Assembly: GCF_025854275.1 (NCBI RefSeq)
Contig: NZ_CP107567.1
Span: forward strand, 3,906,001 to 3,970,000
Direction of reading: 5' to 3'
DNA: 64,000 nt
Origin: Streptomyces peucetius
GTDB lineage: Bacteria > Actinomycetota > Actinomycetes > Streptomycetales > Streptomycetaceae
Below are positions 2,580 through 10,969 of the stretch, piece by piece. Position 1 is the stretch's first letter; every line of letters starts with the position of its first letter. The notes under the pieces were generated by a model. The model made no database searches, was not told the DNA's origin, and saw only the letters and a program-made list of their open reading frames with translations. The position numbers were made by a program, and so were the translations under genes.

Positions 2580-2845
2580 CGCTACGGGGCTCCTGCCCAG
2601 CCCCTTCCGCAGAACCAGTGCTGCCGATGAACTCGCCGCTGAGTTTGCAGTGGATACGTCGAGCAGGCGGTGAACGATGTGCGACCAAGTGAGTGGTCGC
2701 AGCGCTACGGGCGCTCATCCTGCTGCGAGCCGCCAGTACCGCCAGCGTCACTCGAGTCGCCGGACGTTGCCGGCAAGTGGCCGCAGCCGTATCCGCGGTC
2801 CTGATCGCCGCTGCGCATGCACACGCTGACGGACTTGCTCCCTGG

Positions 2846-3427
2846 TTACAGGTGTGCGGCGATGGCGGGCATGAGGTCCTGGAACGTGCGCCCGTCCGCA
2901 GGGCTGCCGATGGCGGCCATCTGCCAGCCGGTCCCTGCACGGTGGACCTTGGCCATGACCTGGGCGGTGTAGCGGCCGCCGCCGGTGAGGGTGTAGCGGG
3001 CCAGCTCCTGGCCGGTGGTCTCGTCCAGCAGGCGGCAGAAGGCGCTGTCGACCTCCTCGAAGGTCTGGCCGGTGAACGAGTTCACCGTGAAGACGATCTG
3101 ATCGATGTGTACGGGGACACGCTGCAGATCCACGATGATCGACTCGTCGTCACCGCCCTGGCCCGCACCGCCGACCCGGTTGTCGCCGGTGTGGCGTACG
3201 GAGCCGTCGTCGCTGGTCAGGTGCTGGAAGAAGACGACGTCCACGGGCTGCTTGTCGGCGAAGAGCACCGCCGAGGCATCCAGGTCGACCTCGCGGGCGG
3301 TCATGCGCGCGAGGAACCCCTTGCGGGGCGCGGACTTCCAGCCCAGTCCCATCCGTACGACGCTGAGCGCGCCGCCGTCGGACTTGCTCAGGCTGATCTG
3401 CTGGCCCTTGGTCAGGTTCACGGACAT
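2846..3427 (-). CDS. terD: TerD-family stress protein (second gene copy)
   Basis: A 193-aa TerD-domain protein starting MSVNLTKGQQISLSK, as family members typically do. The calcium-site signatures are present: VDLDASAVLF near residue 48, and DDESIIVDL after HTGDN. TerD proteins bind Ca2+ and belong to tellurite, phage and stress resistance (Ter) systems; they are cytosolic or membrane-associated. It is the last gene of a three-gene minus-strand unit (terD, tatA-like, terD) with gaps of 76 and 43 nt. It differs from the upstream copy by an insert, APRKGFLARMTARE, before the first acidic motif. Probably co-transcribed from the promoter near 4445. Confidence 0.9.
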   Translation of the reverse strand: MSVNLTKGQQISLSKSDGGALSVVRMGLGWKSAPRKGFLARMTAREVDLDASAVLFADKQPVDVVFFQHLTSDDGSVRHTGDNRVGGAGQGGDDESIIVDLQRVPVHIDQIVFTVNSFTGQTFEEVDSAFCRLLDETTGQELARYTLTGGGRYTAQVMAKVHRAGTGWQMAAIGSPADGRTFQDLMPAIAAHL

Positions 3428-3470
3428 GACATGCCTCGCTGTTCGCTCGTGTGTGGTGGCTGTGGCCGGC

Positions 3471-3734
3471 TCAGGGCCGTGTGGGCCCGTCGCCCGTCGT
3501 GGTGCCGCCGCTGCCGTGCGGGCCGGTGTCGTCGACCTGTTGGCCCTGGATGACGCGGGGAGCCGACTGCTGTGTGCTGTCCGCCGTTTGCTCCTGTGCC
3601 TTCATCGCTTTGGCCTCGCTCTTGAGGATACGTGCCGCCTTGCCCGCGTTGCGGGCCAGGTCAGGGAGCTTCTTCGCGCCGAACACGATGAGGATGACGA
3701 TCAGGAGTATCGCGAGCTCGCTGAGTCCGAACAC
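3471..3734 (-). CDS. tatA: TatA/E-like twin-arginine translocase subunit
   Basis: An 87-aa protein with one N-terminal membrane helix (LSELAILLIVILIVFGAKKL), the FG hinge and an amphipathic helix (LPDLARNAGKAARILKSEAKA), followed by a Gln/Gly/Pro-rich disordered tail. This is the standard TatA architecture. Streptomyces normally carry tatA with tatC elsewhere, and no tatB or tatC lies here, so this is an extra copy. It sits between two terD genes on the same strand, which implies shared transcription with a stress function rather than housekeeping export. Whether it forms Tat pores or only stabilises the membrane, as phage-shock-type proteins do, cannot be told. Confidence 0.85.
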   Translation of the reverse strand: MFGLSELAILLIVILIVFGAKKLPDLARNAGKAARILKSEAKAMKAQEQTADSTQQSAPRVIQGQQVDDTGPHGSGGTTTGDGPTRP

Positions 3735-3810
3735 CTGTTTCCGCTCTCTCGAAGTGCCCGCAGGGCCCTTGAATGGATCGTTGACGCACGGTGCCGCGCC
3801 TGAGTGCAGG

Positions 3811-4386
3811 TCAGACGTTGACGCCGAAGTCGGCGGCGATGCCTGCGAGTCCGGAGGCGTAGCCCTGGCCGACGGCGCGGAACTTCCATTCGGCGCCGTT
3901 GCGGTAGAGCTCGCCGAAGACCATGGCGGTCTCGGTCGAGGCGTCCTCGGAGAGGTCGTAGCGGGCGAGTTCGGCGCCGCCGGCCTGGTTCACGACGCGG
4001 ATGAAGGCATTGCGGACCTGCCCGAAGCTCTGTCCGCGGGCCGTGGCGTCGTGGATGGAGACCGGGAAGACGATCCTGGCGATGTCGGCCGGTACGGCGG
4101 CCAGGTTCACCTTGATGGATTCGTCGTCGCCCTCGCCCTCACCGGTGAGGTTGTCGCCGGTGTGCTCGACCGAACCGTCGGGGCTGGTGAGGTTGTTGTA
4201 GAAGACGAATTGCTGGTCGGAGGCGACCTTTCCGGTCTCGTTCAGCAGCAGTGCGCTGGCGTCGAGGTCGAAGTCCGCGCCGGAGGTGGTGCGTACGTCC
4301 CAGCCCAGGCCGACCAGTACCGCGGCCAGGCCGGGCGCCTCCTTGCTCAGTGAAACGTTGCCGCCCTTGCCGAGGCTCACACCCAT
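3811..4386 (-). CDS. terD: TerD-family stress protein (first gene of operon)
   Basis: A 191-aa TerD protein starting [15 protein letters not shown]. It has the calcium-binding [11 protein letters not shown] motif near residue 37, the [17 protein letters not shown] loop, DDESIKVNL and the C-terminal [19 protein letters not shown] block, so it is full length. ATG 4386 is chosen because GGAAGGG lies 7 nt upstream; an in-frame ATG at 4404 would remove that ribosome-binding site. A 20-bp palindrome (4445-4464) lies 58 bp upstream and is repeated before the terB and 72-aa-protein genes, which predicts joint repression. Divergent from the BlaI-type repressor gene. Confidence 0.92.
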
Positions 4387-4444
4387 CTCGAATCCCTTCC
4401 CCATACGAGTCTTCGGATCGCCGGCCCGCGATGGGACCGATCAG

Positions 4445-4464
4445 AATCTACATCACTGTAGAAG
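4445..4464. promoter_or_regulatory. Predicted BlaI-type operator, site 1 (terD promoter)
   Basis: Read on the minus strand this is CTTCTACA-GTGA-TGTAGATT; the inner arms TCTACA/TGTAGA are perfect. It lies in the divergent region between terD and the BlaI-like gene. The CTACA/TGTAG core resembles BlaI/MecI/CopY operators (TACA/TGTA), but the spacer here is 4 bp rather than the usual 2 bp. The same 20-bp frame recurs at 7878 and 9250. Confidence 0.7.
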
Positions 4465-4670
4465 GTGTGTGGCTCCCATGCGTGTGACTGCCCGGATTCC
4501 TCCGGTCGGGGTGGGGTGTCTCCAAACTTTTGGTGCTCGTACGCTCGCGCGGCCTGTGACGAACAGCCCAACGCTGAGGGAACGCCGGCCTACGGCGGCA
4601 CCCCTTGCTCAGTACGATGAACCGCTCCAGCGCCAGGTGCGCGGGCCGGAGAGAACGGGAGGGAGACGGC

Positions 4671-5075
4671 ATGACGGGCCAGAACCAGGGCGGCGGCCCT
4701 CAGCAACCTCGCCGACGGGGCCAGGGCGAGCTGGAGGGCCAGGTGCTGGCAGCTCTGCGTGAGGCGCCGGGGCCGGTGAACACCGCGTGGGTGCAGGAGC
4801 GGCTCGGTGGCGATCTCGCCTACACCACCGTCATCACCATCCTGACCCGGCTGCATGCGAAGGGTGCCGTCTCTCGTGAGCGCGCGGGCCGGTCCTTCGA
4901 GTGGACGCCGACAGCGGACGAGGCGGGGCTCGCCGCCCTGCGGATGCGGAAGGTGCTGGACGCGGAGGCGGACCGGGAGGCGGTGCTCGCCAGCTTTGTG
5001 ACGGCGCTGCCTCCAGCGGACGAGCAACTGTTGCGGGACCTGCTGGCTCAAGCGACCGAGGAAGGGGAAGGCTGA
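4671..5075 (+). CDS. BlaI/MecI/CopY-family transcriptional repressor
   Basis: A 134-aa winged-helix protein. The segment ELEGQVLAALREAPGPVNTA, then VQERLGGDLAYTTVITILTRLHAKG (helix-turn-helix, about residues 30-55), then VSRERAGRSFEWTPT (wing) matches the BlaI/Penicillinase_R fold, and the acidic C-terminal helices would dimerise. Such repressors are released when a partner M56 metalloprotease cleaves them or triggers cleavage; that partner is encoded 4 nt downstream. GGGAGGGA precedes ATG 4671. A palindrome in the divergent upstream region, about 210 bp before the start, and two more upstream of neighbouring minus-strand genes are its predicted targets. The inducing signal is unknown. Confidence 0.88.
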   Translation: MTGQNQGGGPQQPRRRGQGELEGQVLAALREAPGPVNTAWVQERLGGDLAYTTVITILTRLHAKGAVSRERAGRSFEWTPTADEAGLAALRMRKVLDAEADREAVLASFVTALPPADEQLLRDLLAQATEEGEG

Positions 5076-5079
5076 CCGT

Positions 5080-6018
5080 ATGGGGGTCTTCGTCTTCCTT
5101 CCGCTCGTACTGCCCTTGAGCGCATGGCCGGTCGCGCGCCTGGCCGAGCAGCATCTGCATCCGCGCGCTGCCACCTGGCTGCTGTCGGCAGTCGCCGGCG
5201 TGCTCGCCGTGTGCAGCACGCTGTGCCTCGCGTTGCTCGTCGTGGTCGGTACGGCGCAACTGCCCGGCAATCCGCTGCCCGACGGCTGGTCCGATCCCGA
5301 GGTGCGGGAGGCGGTTCCGTACGACGAGGTCGCGGGCAAGGCGGCCATTCCCGCACTGATCGTCGTGCTCGCCTCGTGCTGCAGAACGGCATGGCGTCAC
5401 CACCGTGTACGGAGCAAGGCCGCCCAGGCGCTCTCCGCGCTGCCGCAGCGTTCGGTGGCGGTACTGCCTGATCGCACGCCGTACGCGTACGCGCTACCCG
5501 GCAGGCGAAGGGACCGGGGCCGGGTCGTGGTCACGACCGGCATGCTGTCCGGGCTGAAAGCGTCCGAGCGCCGGGCGCTGTTCGCGCACGAGCGGGCCCA
5601 TCTCGTCGGTCGTCATGACCGCTTCCTGCTGACAGTGCAGCTGGCTGCGCGGGCCAATCCATTCCTGAGGCCCTTGCGTACCGTGGTGACGTACACGGCG
5701 GAGCGGTGGGCGGACGAGGAGGCAGCCGCAGCGGTCGGCAGCCGGCGCGCGGTGGCACGCGCGATCGGCAAGGCAGGGCTGATCACGCGGGGGGCGCCCG
5801 TCGCGACGCTCGCCGGGTTCGCCGCCGTGGGACCCGTCCCGCGCAGGGTGGCGGCCCTGCTGGAACCGGCACCGGCGGCACACGTCTGGCCGCCGCTGTC
5901 GACCACGGTCGGCCTCGCCGCGTGGGGCGCCGCCGCCGGTACCACGGTCTCCGCCCTGTCGTCGGCGAACTCGGCGGTCACCTTGTTCTTCATCCTCAAG
6001 GCGGCCACGCCGCTGTAG
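5080..6018 (+). CDS. M56-family membrane metallopeptidase (BlaR1-like, no sensor domain)
   Basis: A 312-aa membrane protein with hydrophobic segments at about residues 1-20, 35-60, 85-105 and 265-300. The zinc motif HExxH appears as AHERAHLVGRHDR near residue 173, with a downstream glutamate run (ERWADEEAAAAVG) that fits the third ligand region. The family is that of BlaR1/MecR1, which signal to BlaI-type repressors, but there is no C-terminal penicillin-binding sensor, so the trigger is not deducible. Only 4 nt separate it from the repressor gene, so they are translationally linked. M56/BlaI pairs without a sensor domain are frequent in Streptomyces. Confidence 0.87.
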   Translation: MGVFVFLPLVLPLSAWPVARLAEQHLHPRAATWLLSAVAGVLAVCSTLCLALLVVVGTAQLPGNPLPDGWSDPEVREAVPYDEVAGKAAIPALIVVLASCCRTAWRHHRVRSKAAQALSALPQRSVAVLPDRTPYAYALPGRRRDRGRVVVTTGMLSGLKASERRALFAHERAHLVGRHDRFLLTVQLAARANPFLRPLRTVVTYTAERWADEEAAAAVGSRRAVARAIGKAGLITRGAPVATLAGFAAVGPVPRRVAALLEPAPAAHVWPPLSTTVGLAAWGAAAGTTVSALSSANSAVTLFFILKAATPL

Positions 6019-6076
6019 CCCGCCGCGTGCTTACGCTGGAACTGCGGCGTCTCGTGCCGGCGACAGGGGGAACGAC

Positions 6077-6220
6077 ATGGCAGGCAGCCACCGTTTCCAC
6101 CTCGACCAGGGAGGCCACTCCGTCACGGTCCAGCTCCGGCACGCACGCGGCGAAGTCGAAGTGCTGGTCGACGGCAAGGTGGCCGCGTACCGCAGGGGGC
6201 TCGGCAAGGCCCTTCCGTAG
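6077..6220 (+). CDS. Short protein of 47 aa, possibly a truncated gene
   Basis: ATG 6077 follows CAGGGGG with good spacing and gives MAGSHRFHLDQGGHSVTVQL and onward, ending VDGKVAAYRRGLGKALP. The sequence reads like the N-terminal beta-strands of a larger Streptomyces protein whose remainder is absent, so a truncated remnant is as likely as a real small protein. It is 58 bp downstream of the M56 gene on the same strand. No function is assigned. Confidence 0.5.
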   Translation: MAGSHRFHLDQGGHSVTVQLRHARGEVEVLVDGKVAAYRRGLGKALP

Positions 6221-6243
6221 AGCCCCTCTGCAGCAAGCGGGGG

Positions 6244-7089
6244 TCACTGGGCGGGGCGGCGGGGTTCATCGGCTCCTGTTGCCCGGATGAACCTGGTGAG
6301 GGCGGTCGTGTACTCGTGTGGGTGGGTTACGTGCGGGATGTGGCCCGCACCCTCGAAGATCTGGCGCCGTGCTTGCGGCATGGCAACGGCCAGCCGTTCC
6401 AGGACCGTGGAGAACCAGGGGGGACTTGCGGTGCCGCGGCTCAGCAGTACGGGCACGGTGCAGGCGGAGAGCCCGTCGAGGTCCAGTACGGCCCAGGACG
6501 GGTCGGTCTGTTCGTCCAGCCACGTCTGGGCGTGGGTCACGAACGTGTCACGAAGGGAAGCGGGCAGCTGGTCCCACATGCCAGGGCCCAAGGCCACCTC
6601 CTCGACGAACAGGCGTGCGCCCTGCTCGTTCTCGGCTTTGCGAAGGTGGTCCATCGCCGAGTCGGTGGAGGCCATGGTCGGGCGCAGCTGTGCCAGGGAG
6701 TCCGGGTCGTCGGCCACGACCCCCACCAGAGGGGGCTCGTGAACCGTGATGCTGCGGAACAGCTCGGGCCGGCGTGCGGCCAGGCCGAGGACGATCGACG
6801 CGCCGAAGGAGTTTCCGGCAACGTGTGCGGGGGCGCGGCCGAGCAGTTCGATCAGCGCCGCCAGGTCGTCCTCGTCCTGTCTCCGGGTGCCTTGGCCCGG
6901 CACGTTGCCGCTCTTGCCATGGCCGCGGCGGTCGTACGTGACCACGGTGAAGGACGCGCGCAGGTCGGCTTCGACAGCGGGCAGCCAGCTCTTGTGATCG
7001 TTCCACGAGCCGTGGACGAGTACGAGTGGCTCCCCGTCTCCAACGACCTCGTAGTAGAGATTCACACCGTCGGCGCGTACCTGTGGCAT
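6244..7089 (-). CDS. Alpha/beta-fold hydrolase
   Basis: A 281-aa hydrolase. The oxyanion segment LVLVHGSWNDHKSW and the YDRRGHGKSG loop are followed by the nucleophile elbow VAGNSFGASI (Ser near residue 110). The catalytic His is expected in GAGHIPHVTHP near residue 260, and an acid lies in between. ATG 7089 is selected because GAGGAG lies 9 nt upstream; the longer in-frame form from 7182 adds a non-conserved Arg/Gly-rich stretch. It is cytoplasmic with unknown substrate. It lies convergent with the M56 gene and upstream of nothing obviously related, so its membership in the Ter regulon is not supported by an operator. Confidence 0.88.
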   Translation of the reverse strand: MPQVRADGVNLYYEVVGDGEPLVLVHGSWNDHKSWLPAVEADLRASFTVVTYDRRGHGKSGNVPGQGTRRQDEDDLAALIELLGRAPAHVAGNSFGASIVLGLAARRPELFRSITVHEPPLVGVVADDPDSLAQLRPTMASTDSAMDHLRKAENEQGARLFVEEVALGPGMWDQLPASLRDTFVTHAQTWLDEQTDPSWAVLDLDGLSACTVPVLLSRGTASPPWFSTVLERLAVAMPQARRQIFEGAGHIPHVTHPHEYTTALTRFIRATGADEPRRPAQ

Positions 7090-7357
7090 GCCGCGAAACT
7101 CCTCGAAGGGAAGGGCGACGGGTTCCCTGGCGCCGCCACGCAGATCTCTATCAGCACCGTCCGGCGTCTCGGTCGCCGCCACGCCGCACCAGGGCCCCTC
7201 GCAGGCCGGGGCGTTGCGGATGCCCTGGTCCAGCGCCTTTCGATGCGCAGCTATGACAGTGCCGTCATTTCTCCTCAGTATCCACCGGTCGGCTGATCGC
7301 CACCTGCCTCCGCAACCTGTCGACCAACGCTGTTCCTGGAGATGAACGAAGCCGGCC

Positions 7358-7813
7358 TCAGAGGTCGAACTCGTGCGGCGGCAGGTCGAGGGTGTAGCAG
7401 GCTTCGCGGACGACGGCCTGCTCGGTCTTGTCGAAGTCGCCGTCGGCGCCGCCGATGACGATGCCGATCTGGATGACGGCGCGCGCCTCGGCGGGCTTCT
7501 TCTTCGCCTTGGCGATCTCCTGCATGACGCTGACCTTGCCGAAGTCGAAGTCGGCGGTCAGCTTGTTCAGGTTGTCGTCGAAGCGGCGCTGGAGGTCGTC
7601 GGCGGGAAAGTTCTGCAACACCTCATTGGTGGCGATCAGTTGCGCCACCCGGCGCCGCTCCGACGGGTCGATCGTGCCGTCGGCCGCGGCGACCAGGGCG
7701 CACATCGCCATGGAGGCGTCACGGAAGGCGCCGCTCTTCAGATCGTTCTTCTTCGCCACGAGCTGGGTCTGCATCGTCGATGCGGATTCCTTGATGCGGT
7801 CCCACAGGGCCAT
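7358..7813 (-). CDS. terB: TerB-family tellurite-resistance protein
   Basis: A 151-aa all-helical TerB protein starting MALWDRIKESASTMQTQLVA. The metal-binding acidic patches AAADGTIDPSERRRVAQLI (about residue 42) and GGADGDFDKTEQAVVREAC (about residue 120) are the two family hallmarks. TerB acts with TerD-type proteins at the membrane in stress or tellurite resistance. A 20-bp palindrome (7878-7897) sits upstream of the start, and a perfect 15-bp hairpin lies between palindrome and start codon. It is therefore predicted to be controlled together with terD by the BlaI-type repressor. Confidence 0.92.
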   Translation of the reverse strand: MALWDRIKESASTMQTQLVAKKNDLKSGAFRDASMAMCALVAAADGTIDPSERRRVAQLIATNEVLQNFPADDLQRRFDDNLNKLTADFDFGKVSVMQEIAKAKKKPAEARAVIQIGIVIGGADGDFDKTEQAVVREACYTLDLPPHEFDL

Positions 7814-7834
7814 GAGAACTCCGTATGTGTCAGG

Positions 7835-7872
7835 GGCGGTCCGGGCCGGACGGGGGGCCGGCCCGGACCGCC
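7835..7872. terminator. Strong hairpin between operator and terB
   Basis: A perfect 15-bp stem (GGCGGTCCGGGCCGG pairing with CCGGCCCGGACCGCC) with an 8-nt loop. It lies after the spo0M-like gene and its downstream operator but before terB, so it may end the upstream transcript or act as a structured terB leader. There is no clear U-tract. Confidence 0.55.
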
Positions 7873-7877
7873 ATCTT

Positions 7878-7897
7878 CTTCTACAGTGATGTAGAAG
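7878..7897. promoter_or_regulatory. Predicted BlaI-type operator, site 2 (terB promoter)
   Basis: CTTCTACA-GTGA-TGTAGAAG is a perfect 8-bp inverted repeat around a 4-bp spacer. Spacer and left arm are identical to site 1 read on the minus strand. It lies 64 bp upstream of terB. Confidence 0.72.
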
Positions 7898-7920
7898 TTA
7901 CCAGGGTCGGCGCCGGCGTC

Positions 7921-8931
7921 TCAGCCTTCGCCGCCCTCGTCCTCGTCGCCTTCGAAGAAGTCGCCGACTTCGTCGACGACTTCGGCCGCGACCATTCCAC
8001 CGACGACGCCGACCGCGAGGCCGGCCGCGCCCGCTGCGACGACGGTTCCCATGCCGGGGCCGGACCGGTGCCCATGACCCTCGTTGTGATGCTTGTCGTC
8101 GTGGTGGCCGCCGTGATGGGTGTCGCCGTGTCCGTACGAGGAGTGGCTGCCGTAGCTGGAGCGGTGCTCGACGAGGCGGCGCACCCAGCTGTCCACCTCG
8201 GCGTTCCAGTCGGTGTGCTCGATGCCGTGCTGGCTGACGGTGAAGCGGGTCAGTGCGTCATGACCGTCGGTGAACGGCCCGCCGCGCTTGTCGGCCTCCA
8301 GGACGACCTCCATGCCGCCCGGGGTCGCGAGGAAGGTCACCTCGATCTCGTTGACGGCGTGGGCGTACTGCGGCGGGGGTGTCAGCTCGATCTCCTGGTA
8401 GAAGGACAGCTGCTGCCCGGTGCCGCCGATGCGGCCGTATTCGAGGTCCGCGGACCTGAACCCGAAGCCGGTCTGGCCGAACGCCTCCAGGATCGCCTCC
8501 TGGACGGGCAGTGGCCGCACGGAGAGGGCGTCGAGGTCACCTTTGTCCTTGGCGCCGGCGACACCGAGCTCGGTGCGTACGCCGAGGACGATCCCCAGCG
8601 GCTGCCCGTGCAGCACGCTGATCGGGGTCTCCCACGGGAGCGTCACCGTGAACGGCACGCTGCGTTGCTCACCTTCGGCGAGGCGGAAGCCGCCCCCGAC
8701 GCCGAACCGTTCGAAGACGACGGCTCCGTCGTGCTCCCCGTCGTCGGTCTCCGCCTCGACGCGGGCCACCAGCTCCAACGTGATGTGTTCGATGTCGAAG
8801 TCGGCGTTGCCTCCCCTGAGGTGGACTTCCCCGGTGAGGCTGCCGCCGGGCGGCACGGCGCCCGATGTCAGGATCGTGTCCACGGCTGGGCCGCCGACGC
8901 CGATCGAGCCGAGCAGGCGTTTGAACACCAT
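7921..8931 (-). CDS. Spo0M-like sporulation/stress protein (arrestin fold)
   Basis: A 336-aa protein starting MVFKRLLGSIGVGGPAVDT, the conserved Spo0M opening. The arrestin-like region covers about residues 1-250 (PPGGSLTGEVHLRGG, PFTVTLPWETPISVLHGQ, FFQ-type EIELTPPP). A His-rich stretch near residue 275 (HGDTHHGGHHDDKHH) precedes a short hydrophobic segment (AAGAAGLAVGVVGGM) and an acidic tail. Spo0M in Bacillus modulates sporulation phosphorelay and cell shape; homologues in actinobacteria lie near ter genes. ATG 8931 uses AAGGAG upstream; the GTG at 8943 would overlap that site. It follows the 72-aa gene by 78 bp and probably shares its operator (9250-9269). Confidence 0.85.
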   Translation of the reverse strand: MVFKRLLGSIGVGGPAVDTILTSGAVPPGGSLTGEVHLRGGNADFDIEHITLELVARVEAETDDGEHDGAVVFERFGVGGGFRLAEGEQRSVPFTVTLPWETPISVLHGQPLGIVLGVRTELGVAGAKDKGDLDALSVRPLPVQEAILEAFGQTGFGFRSADLEYGRIGGTGQQLSFYQEIELTPPPQYAHAVNEIEVTFLATPGGMEVVLEADKRGGPFTDGHDALTRFTVSQHGIEHTDWNAEVDSWVRRLVEHRSSYGSHSSYGHGDTHHGGHHDDKHHNEGHGHRSGPGMGTVVAAGAAGLAVGVVGGMVAAEVVDEVGDFFEGDEDEGGEG

Positions 8932-9009
8932 CGTGGCGTTCACTCCTTCGTGATGCGTGGTGCTTGCGTAACGCCGCCGTCATCCCTTATCGGGGCGGCG
9001 GTCCGGTGA

Positions 9010-9228
9010 CTACTTCGCTGCGCCCAGGGCGGCCAGCGCCTGCGCCCAGCGGACGTACTTGAGGTCGGCGAGGTCGGCTACTGTCTCGACGCCGAACGCC
9101 TCCTTGAGAAGCTCACCGTCCCGGTCCGACACCCCCTTGAGTGCGGCGACCGGTGCGGCAAGAACATCGGCGAGCGGCTTGTCCGCCCACGCCTTGTCCA
9201 GAACCTTGCCCAGATCGATCGACGTCAC
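9010..9228 (-). CDS. 72-aa helix-hairpin-helix-like protein in Ter cluster
   Basis: A 72-aa protein, MTSIDLGKVLDKAWADKPLA and onward, whose middle (PVAALKGVSDRDGELL, then AFGVETVADLADL) looks like a helix-hairpin-helix motif. It has no membrane segment. It is first in a minus-strand unit with the Spo0M-like gene, and a 20-bp operator lies only 21 bp upstream of its start, overlapping the expected promoter and leader. That makes it a predicted tightly repressed member of the BlaI/Ter regulon. Function unknown. Confidence 0.8.
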   Translation of the reverse strand: MTSIDLGKVLDKAWADKPLADVLAAPVAALKGVSDRDGELLKEAFGVETVADLADLKYVRWAQALAALGAAK

Positions 9229-9249
9229 GGCTACCTCCTGAAGGGCGAT

Positions 9250-9269
9250 CTTCTACATTCGCGTAGAAG
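9250..9269. promoter_or_regulatory. Predicted BlaI-type operator, site 3
   Basis: CTTCTACA-TTCG-CGTAGAAG pairs 7 of 8 positions per arm with a 4-bp spacer, the same 20-bp frame as sites 1 and 2. It lies 21 bp upstream of the 72-aa gene and the downstream spo0M-like gene. Confidence 0.68.
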
Positions 9270-9399
9270 CATAGGGGTGCTCGTATCGAACGAGGGGCGA
9301 ATCCCGGCCTTTCATGGGCACGTCCTGAAACAGCCGCCCGGGTGCGCGGGCGGCACCCCGGGCGTACTTCTCCTGCCGGAAGTGTGGACGGCGTGATGT

Positions 9400-10406
9400 C
9401 GCAGGACACCGTCGAACCCCACGCGCAGCCGGCCGGCCCTCTGGCGCACGAGCAGGCCGCAGAAGAACAGCGGTCATCACCAGTGCACCGCTGGTGAGGA
9501 ACAGTTCGTCCGGAGCCGCAGCATGGAAGAGTGATCCTCCTCTGTAGGCGACATCGCCCACGACCAGGTTGAGGGCGTCGAGACAGTTCCCGCCGATGAT
9601 GGCCGCGACGGCCAGGGTCACGGCCCCACGGCGCACCGCGGCGATGGACGTGACGGTCTCCGGGAGTGCGTTGACCACTCCCATGAACACCGCACCGACG
9701 AGCCCCGCACTCAGACCAGTGCGTTCCACGAGGCTCTCAGCGGCACGGGCCACGGCCCACCCGCTGACCATGACGAGGATGGCAACGGCGGTGAACTCCG
9801 TCCACAGTCGCCGGCTGCTGCGAGCCGCCAGGGCGTCGTCGCCGGTGTCGTCGGCGGGGACGTCCGCCAGCGTGTCCTTGGTGCGGACCGCTCGCCACAT
9901 GGGCGCCACCTGCCCGCGTACGAGCCGCAGGCCACCCCAGTACAGAGCCACCATGGCGACAGACGCCGGGTGCACCCCCAGCACGGTCACGCCCGGACTG
10001 AACGTGGCCATCAGCGCGATGCCCAGCAGCACGATGAGCAGGCAGCCGAACATCATGTTCTGCAGCGAAGCGGCAGCATGCTCCAGGTTGGACTCCCGGT
10101 CAAACGCGTCTGCCACGGCGATCGCCACGGTCTGCGCGGCGATTCCGCCTACGGCATTGCTGTACGCGAGCTGCGGTTGATCCGCAGCTGCGCTGACGCC
10201 GTCATCACGACGCCGGACAAAGACGTGACCAGGCCGAACAGCACGGCCCCGAGAAACGCCTCGCCCCAGCCCGTCCGATCGGCCAACAGGTCTCCCACAC
10301 CCGCCAGCCGAACACTGCAGACCACGGTGACGCCCGTGGCCACAAGGAAGACACCGATGCTCCAGCCCAACGGCCACAGCTCATCCAGGAATGCGGGCAC
10401 GATCAT
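9400..10406 (-). pseudogene. Frameshifted Ca2+/Na+:cation antiporter (CaCA, YrbG-like)
   Basis: The N-terminal part (start 10406, MIVPAFLDELWPLGW to about GVVMTASAQLR near 10195) and the main part, read in another frame (NAVGGIAAQTVAIAVADAF to GGNCLDALNLVVGD), together match the duplicated membrane repeat of calcium/cation antiporters. The second alpha-repeat appears as GVVNALPETVTSIAAVRRG. A second frame change near 9470 is needed to reach the expected C-terminal helix (LLVRQRAGRLRVGFDG), after which the sequence is degenerate. Two frame breaks indicate a pseudogene unless the assembly contains indels. It lies divergently beyond operator 3 and is not obviously part of that regulon. Confidence 0.7.
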
Positions 10407-10559
10407 CCTTCAGACGAGTCCGGGGGACGTCAGGGTCGGGCATCTACCCCGGCTTCCTCTTCTTAGTGCGTGCTTGCCGCTGCTGTTGCGTGCTCGCGTA
10501 TCACCCTTCAGGTGACCGATGCGACCGTGACGGACAGGGCCGACATCCCCGGCAGCGTT

Positions 10560-10969
10560 CTCGCTGAGCTGATCAGCGCCTTCGGGCTCGGAGAGGTGTG
10601 GGAGAGTACGCCCCGACGTGGGTCGCCGAGCGCGGTCTCTCCGCCACTACGGACGAGTTGTACCGCCGCTTGCTGCGGTTGCACGTCCTTCCCGTCTTCG
10701 GCGCCCTGAACCTGGATGAAGATCACCCCGCCGGCGGTTCCCTCCTGGAGGCGGAGCGTCTGGCGGCCACAGGTGCCACGACCGTCGCCAAGTCCTACCG
10801 CCTGCTCAAGGCGATCACGGAGATCGCGACCGACGACGAGCTGGTCCGCCGAAACCCGTGCCGGATCAAGGGCGCCGGCAGCGAGAAGCCAAGGGGGCGC
10901 CTTGTATGGGCTGTTTCGCGCCGCCATGCCTTTGAGGAGGCGATGCCACCAGTCCGACCCGGGAGGTGA
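10560..10969 (+). pseudogene. Tyrosine integrase remnant (core-binding domain only)
   Basis: The translation EYAPTWVAERGLSATTDELY, LHVLPVFGALNLDE and ATTVAKSYRLLKAI...RRNPCRIKGAG is the SAM-like N-terminal core-binding domain of Streptomyces integrases. The central segment must be read with compensating frame shifts near 10715-10760 (ITPPAVPSW is in another frame). The sequence stops after AMPP, before any catalytic R, HxxR or Tyr box, so the gene is dead. It is a scar of an earlier integrated element, on the chromosome side of the tRNA-Gly fragment at 11152. Confidence 0.75.

Follow-up and report, generated by a model that had tools for sequence, protein, structure and literature searches.

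Which protein acts at a palindrome that stands three times in a cluster of stress genes in Streptomyces peucetius, and what does it control? The cluster lies in a stretch of 64,000 nucleotides (contig NZ_CP107567.1, positions 3,906,001 to 3,970,000; here called the window) and combines genes for TerD, TerB, TatA-like and Spo0M proteins with genes for a BlaI-type repressor and a membrane zinc protease. The original prediction, made from the letters of the window, had described it as a self-contained regulon under the repressor. We consider it very probable that a subfamily of BlaI repressors, with an operator whose half-sites are separated by 4 bp (N4), represses a membrane-stress regulon, and that a BlaR1-like protease devoid of a sensor domain would relieve the repression.

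The 20-bp palindrome CTTCTACANNNNTGTAGAAG has three matches at up to three mismatches in the 64 kb, compared with 0.02 expected by chance, and none of 100 shuffles reaches three. All three are given without strand, and their common form is CTTCTACA-N4-TGTAGAAG. Operator 1 (4445..4464, two mismatches) lies between terD, which starts on the minus strand at 4404, 40 bp away, and blaI, which is 206 bp away. Operator 2 (7878..7897) matches without mismatch and is located 64 bp upstream of the minus-strand start of terB at 7813, while operator 3 (9250..9269, one mismatch) is located 21 bp upstream of the minus-strand start, at 9228, of a gene for a 72-amino-acid protein (p72), which is followed by spo0M. 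The palindromes are thus real, as had been claimed, and the three distances fall within the predicted 21-65 bp. The placement of the first site before terD also holds, but the same site additionally stands upstream of blaI, which the earlier list had left out.

That the palindromes are an artefact of chance or base composition has a negligible probability. The half-sites are short, and at up to three mismatches the palindrome occurs at 12 places in the genome compared with 5 for the reversed pattern; against this stand the low expectation in the window and the reversed control, which has no match at one mismatch in 199 Streptomyces genomes and none at two mismatches in 1.4 Mb of BlaI loci. A class-wide scan of 394 genomes gave a reversed match in three. 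The 8.05 Mb genome contains four copies of the exact core, TCTACA-N4-TGTAGA, each inside one of two clusters, the second of which is described below. At one mismatch there are eight occurrences, six of them inside the two clusters, and three for the control; the two outside, at 212699 and 7444903, were judged to be chance matches in view of that control. The exact core is therefore confined to the two clusters, rather than scattered without relation to the blaI-protease pair. The classical operator TACANNTGTA was also tried; it was found at three places in the genome, none of them in the two clusters, compared with 17 for its reversed control.

The spacing and the target genes were compared across 80 named loci, the best 80 of 562 BlaI relatives, which comprise the 1.4 Mb mentioned above. 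At up to two mismatches, these loci contain 108 sites with the N4 spacer, but only 0, 4, 0, 1, 5, 1, 2 and 0 sites with spacers of N0, N1, N2, N3, N5, N6, N7 and N8, respectively. The proposed spacer of 4 bp rather than 2 bp is thus borne out (108 sites for N4, none for N2), and since the 2-bp spacer is not found, the repressor is best regarded as a variant within the BlaI superfamily. A site is present in 62 of the 80 loci at up to two mismatches, in 65 at up to three, and in 70 if a matrix score of at least 20 is used. Together with the window and the second copy, the loci provide a set of 113 sites, only four of which lie inside called genes although a crude gene caller assigned 81% of the bases to coding sequence. 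A labelled cluster-type gene starts within 350 bp downstream of 99 of the 113 sites. The genes faced, where one site can face two, are terB (34), blaI (24, all with the site within 350 bp upstream), terD (20), p72 (18), CNNM-type genes (13), spo0M (12), tatA (5) and unlabelled genes (18); these neighbourhood counts lean towards cluster genes because the loci were chosen by BlaI, labelled with cluster proteins and annotated with the crude caller. The genome-level site counts, the loci chosen by the motif only, the cross-table of BlaI and terB, and the sample of sequences upstream of terB are free of this choice. By its sequence the site is a TACA/TGTA palindrome, in which positions 3-8 of the half-site are constant in 94-100% of the 113 sites, a range that leans upward because the sites were picked at up to two mismatches. 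The position in front of blaI is that expected of an operator at the repressor's own gene, and the palindrome precedes terB, terD, tatA and p72/spo0M in other loci too, as had been proposed for the window. In four loci, related small genes that look ArsR-like by eye start 39-99 bp past a site (L074 14274, L081 12038, L086 11656 and L087 14930).

To decide which regulator the site belongs to, its presence was compared with that of a BlaI orthologue (a hit at E ~1e-43 or better), which is found in 118 of the 199 sampled Streptomyces genomes. A site at one mismatch or less is present in 79 of the 199 genomes, namely in 75 of the 118 with the orthologue and in 4 of the 81 without it (Fisher P 1e-18, which is too small since the genomes are related). 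Among genomes with a close terB, the site occurs in 64 of 98 with BlaI and in 2 of 26 without it; among those without a close terB, the numbers are 11 of 20 and 2 of 55. In these related genomes, terB has no effect on the site, either given BlaI (P 0.45) or without it (P 0.59). Hence, the palindrome tracks the BlaI orthologue across Streptomyces, and terB adds nothing when BlaI is taken into account, which supports the original prediction. In 26 of the 29 loci found by the motif only, the distance to a cluster-type gene is about 1.5 kb or less.

These data bear on the alternative that the palindrome is the operator of a different, unlinked regulator of Ter and Spo0M genes, and that blaI is merely one of its targets. 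We hold this to be very unlikely. It would fit the observation that blaI is one among many targets, and that one genome (G136) has operators without a close BlaI, but it does not fit the dependence of the site on BlaI given terB in the absence of the converse. Moreover, three of the four exceptional genomes with a site but no orthologue (G038, G080 and G103, the fourth being G136) have it 62, 23 and 44 bp, respectively, before a match to a BlaI of 46-48% identity; in all, a site stands 23-72 bp before a 45-51% identical BlaI match in seven genomes (the same three plus G014, G102, G349 and G487). In two of them that belong to another family, G349 (L147) and G487 (L146), it likewise precedes a BlaI-protease pair, and in the loci L047, L146 and L147 (3 kb) and L159 (10 kb) BlaI and the protease are the only cluster genes found. 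In the class-wide scan, the site was present in eight genomes outside Streptomyces, two of which (family f17) have it before a BlaI-protease pair. The other six (family f18, five of genus g47 and one of g64) look unrelated: at the single site examined in each (L130-L135), the palindrome falls within a long open frame, with neither a BlaI nor a ter gene found in these loci.

The sequences upstream of terB also speak against an unlinked regulator. Among the 34 genomes that have BlaI and a close terB but no site at one mismatch, all 20 sampled have a weaker operator 21-66 bp from terB, with a score of at least 22.8. Among the 26 genomes with a close terB but no orthologue, 7 of 20 sampled score at least 15 upstream of terB, and five of these seven (G003, G005, G056, G066 and G115) have a 61-65% identical BlaI just under the orthologue cut. 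The remaining two of the seven are G102, with a 51% identical BlaI, and G011, with a 52% identical BlaI and a degraded terB site scoring 15.4. In total, degraded palindromes with scores of 2.9-15.4 are located 41-74 bp before terB in 5 of the 20 genomes (G011, G080, G085, G089 and G164), and they resemble remnants of operators whose orthologous BlaI has been lost. In nine others of the 20 the score does not exceed -9.4, in one case over a truncated stretch.

Several observations weigh against control by BlaI, in addition to the relatedness of the genomes that makes the P values too small. No site at up to three mismatches was found in 15 of the 80 BlaI loci, six of which are shorter than 12 kb, and 10 of the 80 have no matrix score of at least 20. 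A site at one mismatch is missing from 43 of the 118 genomes with the orthologue, and three of the 29 motif loci (L022, L024 and L026) have no cluster gene nearby. In G102, whose BlaI is only 51% identical, the terB site is good. G136 retains sites at both terB and spo0M, and no BlaI over 34% identity was found in it; this may reflect a recent loss, or may point to another regulator. Finally, the S. peucetius genome encodes three further good BlaI paralogues, in whose loci no TACA-N0-6-TGTA was found. As a detail, G136 (L156) is a one-contig genome, with the operators at 6580 (spo0M) and 7603 (terB). Taken together, the comparison argues for a real operator with the N4 spacing, for the target genes named, and for dependence on the BlaI lineage.

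The second cluster (L011), at 0.82 Mb in the same genome, contains genes for p72, Spo0M, TerB, a GlsB-like protein, the protease, BlaI, TerD, TatA and TerD. Its BlaI and protease are 95% and 92% identical to their counterparts in the window. The terB and terD-blaI operators are identical at 19 of 20 positions between the copies, compared with 77 and 79% identity in the remaining intergenic DNA; the p72 operator was uninformative, as the automatic alignment broke within it. Since the system is duplicated, with the same kind of sites, it is not self-contained, and the three sites of the window are not the complete set. The sites before CNNM-type genes in other genomes contradict self-containment as well. 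Four DUF21/CBS-like (CNNM-like) genes adjoin the second cluster (L011 4682-9538, minus strand); upstream of them lie a site at 9827 and, at about 9671, a degenerate palindrome with an N5 spacer. The cluster is also adjoined by an open reading frame that looks transposase-like by eye (L011 15338-16807, minus strand), a possible route of duplication.

How the repressor might act is suggested by the 5' ends of the operators. In the terB class, with 33 distinct sequences, a CTGnTA pattern creates TGn-TAnnnT across the operator 5' end; the window has CTGGTAACTT, and the operator of the second-copy terB deviates from the class pattern with TTGACAGCTT. At this end, most sequences of the p72 and spo0M classes read TATGCT. 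From class consensus and sequence, a putative extended -10-like element, TGG-TAACTT (7895..7903, minus strand), would overlap operator 2, and a -10-like TATGCT (9268..9273, minus strand) would overlap operator 3. Because these elements resemble -10 regions, repression by blocking of RNA polymerase may be envisaged. A sigma-70 promoter scan of window positions 2600-10600 found no promoter.

By position and by analogy with the BlaI/BlaR1 family, the following mechanism can be proposed. The window BlaI, and probably also its paralogue at 0.82 Mb, would act at the palindromes as a dimer, overlapping or abutting the -10 region, and would keep blaI-protease, terD-tatA-terD, terB and p72-spo0M off. 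The protease encoded behind blaI would sense an envelope signal, most likely via the conserved loop that joins its second and third transmembrane helices, and would cut BlaI near Ser107-Phe108, whereupon all units and the repressor would be expressed together.

The repressor (4671..5075, plus strand) matches PF03965 with 81.9 bits (cut-off 22.6). Its best match among solved structures is 2g9w (E 6.6e-12), an entry that says just "conserved hypothetical protein" and that we take to be BlaI of Mycobacterium tuberculosis. Ser107-Phe108 aligns with N101-F102 of Staphylococcus aureus BlaI, albeit in a weak alignment (1sd4, E 0.16). The protease gene (5080..6018, plus strand) encodes 312 amino acids. 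The original prediction called the product an M56 peptidase; the predicted architecture is indeed BlaR1/M56-like, but at E<=0.001 Pfam matched only M48 (PF01435) and not the M56 profile. In the predicted model (mean pLDDT 73), helices of membrane length span residues 2-25, 28-59, 80-119 and 276-309, the last partly with pLDDT below 50, and the zinc region is placed between the third and fourth. The model ends at the last helix, and Pfam detects no penicillin-binding sensor domain. We place the repressor in the BlaI superfamily, and the protease appears BlaR1-like in its working rather than an established member of M56.

A further alternative is that BlaI does bind the palindrome but is controlled by a ligand or metal, like CopY, rather than by proteolysis, and that the protease has another role. 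In its favour, BlaI shows a weak match to CopY_TcrY (23.7 bits, compared with a cut-off of 121.95). It is opposed by the tight pairing of the two genes, the protease gene following blaI by 3-12 bp in 59 counted pairs, by the invariance of the protease residues H170, E171 and H174 (HExxH) and E208 in 20 sequences and of Phe108 in eight BlaI proteins, and by the absence of cysteine, and therefore of a CXC metal motif, from the window BlaI. We regard this alternative as distinctly unlikely, and prefer control of BlaI by the protease.

Within that reading, the loop may hold the sensor. In 19 protease sequences, the divergent L047 being left out, residues 54-83 form the most conserved 30-mer (0.951), compared with 0.908 for the zinc-site region at 163-216. 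In BlaR1, a penicillin-binding domain is attached, and the extracellular loop EL1 is lodged in it as a pseudo-ligand. Because no such domain is attached here, residues 54-83 might instead dock in trans into a cellular enzyme, for example a penicillin-binding protein, or might themselves bind an ion or lipid, and a lost or changed contact would fire the protease and start a response to envelope damage by Ter, Spo0M, TatA and CNNM-type proteins. This version is rather doubtful, and the comparison with the BlaR1 loop is based on the order of the helices because the alignment search with the protease did not reach BlaR1 by sequence.

The remaining genes of the cluster are on the minus strand and code for TerD (3811..4404, PF02342), a TatA-like protein (3471..3734, PF02416), a second TerD (2846..3427, PF02342), TerB (7358..7813, PF05099), Spo0M (7921..8943, PF07070) and p72 (9010..9228). 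Pfam agrees with the predicted identities of the two TerD proteins, TatA, TerB, Spo0M and BlaI, all of which exceed their own cut-offs. The p72 protein, for which Pfam gave no match at E<=0.001, is conserved and is predicted to be all-helical (pLDDT 75); its family has 383 relatives among 405 candidates, and the 120 listed are mostly from Streptomyces. A sodium/calcium-exchanger-like gene (9253-10406, minus strand) occupies positions 9253-10377 in one frame and 10149-10406 in an overlapping one and looks split; operator 3 coincides in part with its 3' end. The terB leader (7814-7877, minus strand) contains a strong hairpin (-37.6 kcal/mol, z -4.16), and four of six terB leaders folded singly have z <= -2.69. 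A conserved RNA fold was dropped as a candidate, as the consensus of a 19-sequence alignment retains just four pairs.

To our knowledge, the inducers of Ter and Spo0M proteins are poorly known. A repressor, an operator and a receptor-like protease make this signal testable, since a reporter behind the operator would read it. The analysis also describes a subfamily of BlaI whose putative operators have half-sites 4 bp apart, which allows targets to be predicted, and whose orthologue is present in more than half of the sampled Streptomyces genomes, and a BlaR1-like protease without a sensor domain. Judged from the conserved sites, many Streptomyces probably carry such a switch of a repressor and a membrane protease over stress genes. 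By title, no report of a BlaI-Ter-Spo0M regulon was found, most subscription papers being outside the coverage, and the accessible part of PMC8780764 contains nothing on one.

Among known systems, BlaI-BlaR1 and MecI-MecR1 of Staphylococcus and Bacillus likewise pair a repressor from this domain family with a neighbouring gluzincin in the membrane, and their sites, which are built of TACA/TGTA half-sites, include one before the repressor gene. The part of PMC9834060 available places the cut in BlaI between Asn101 and Phe102; it also describes EL1 of BlaR1 (residues 56-96) as protruding to the exterior from between the second and third transmembrane helices. In the window BlaI, a Phe occupies the position that aligns, weakly, with the cleavage site, and the loop of the Streptomyces protease is placed like EL1 in the order of the helices. 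In contrast to these systems, the Streptomyces operator has an N4 rather than an N2 spacer, the protease has no penicillin sensor domain, and the targets are Ter, Spo0M, TatA and CNNM-type genes. In the accessible text of PMC7253601, TACANNTGTA is named as the operator of BlaI/CopY repressors, with a refined version of 16 bases for CopY. The CopY/CopR copper repressors, with the operator RNYKACANNTGTMRNY, belong to the same superfamily and share the half-site core, but according to that text (PMC7253601) they differ in their N2 spacer and in metal control via CXC motifs. The window BlaI is free of cysteine. BlaI of M. tuberculosis resembles the present case as an actinobacterial BlaI with targets beyond beta-lactamase; the part of PMC12565901 available reports that it binds promoter fragments of Rv1303 and Rv2151c. 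Finally, the window shares TerB and TerD domains with the Ter stress proteins, but here the genes that encode them stand under BlaI-linked sites together with those for Spo0M, TatA, p72 and CNNM-type proteins.

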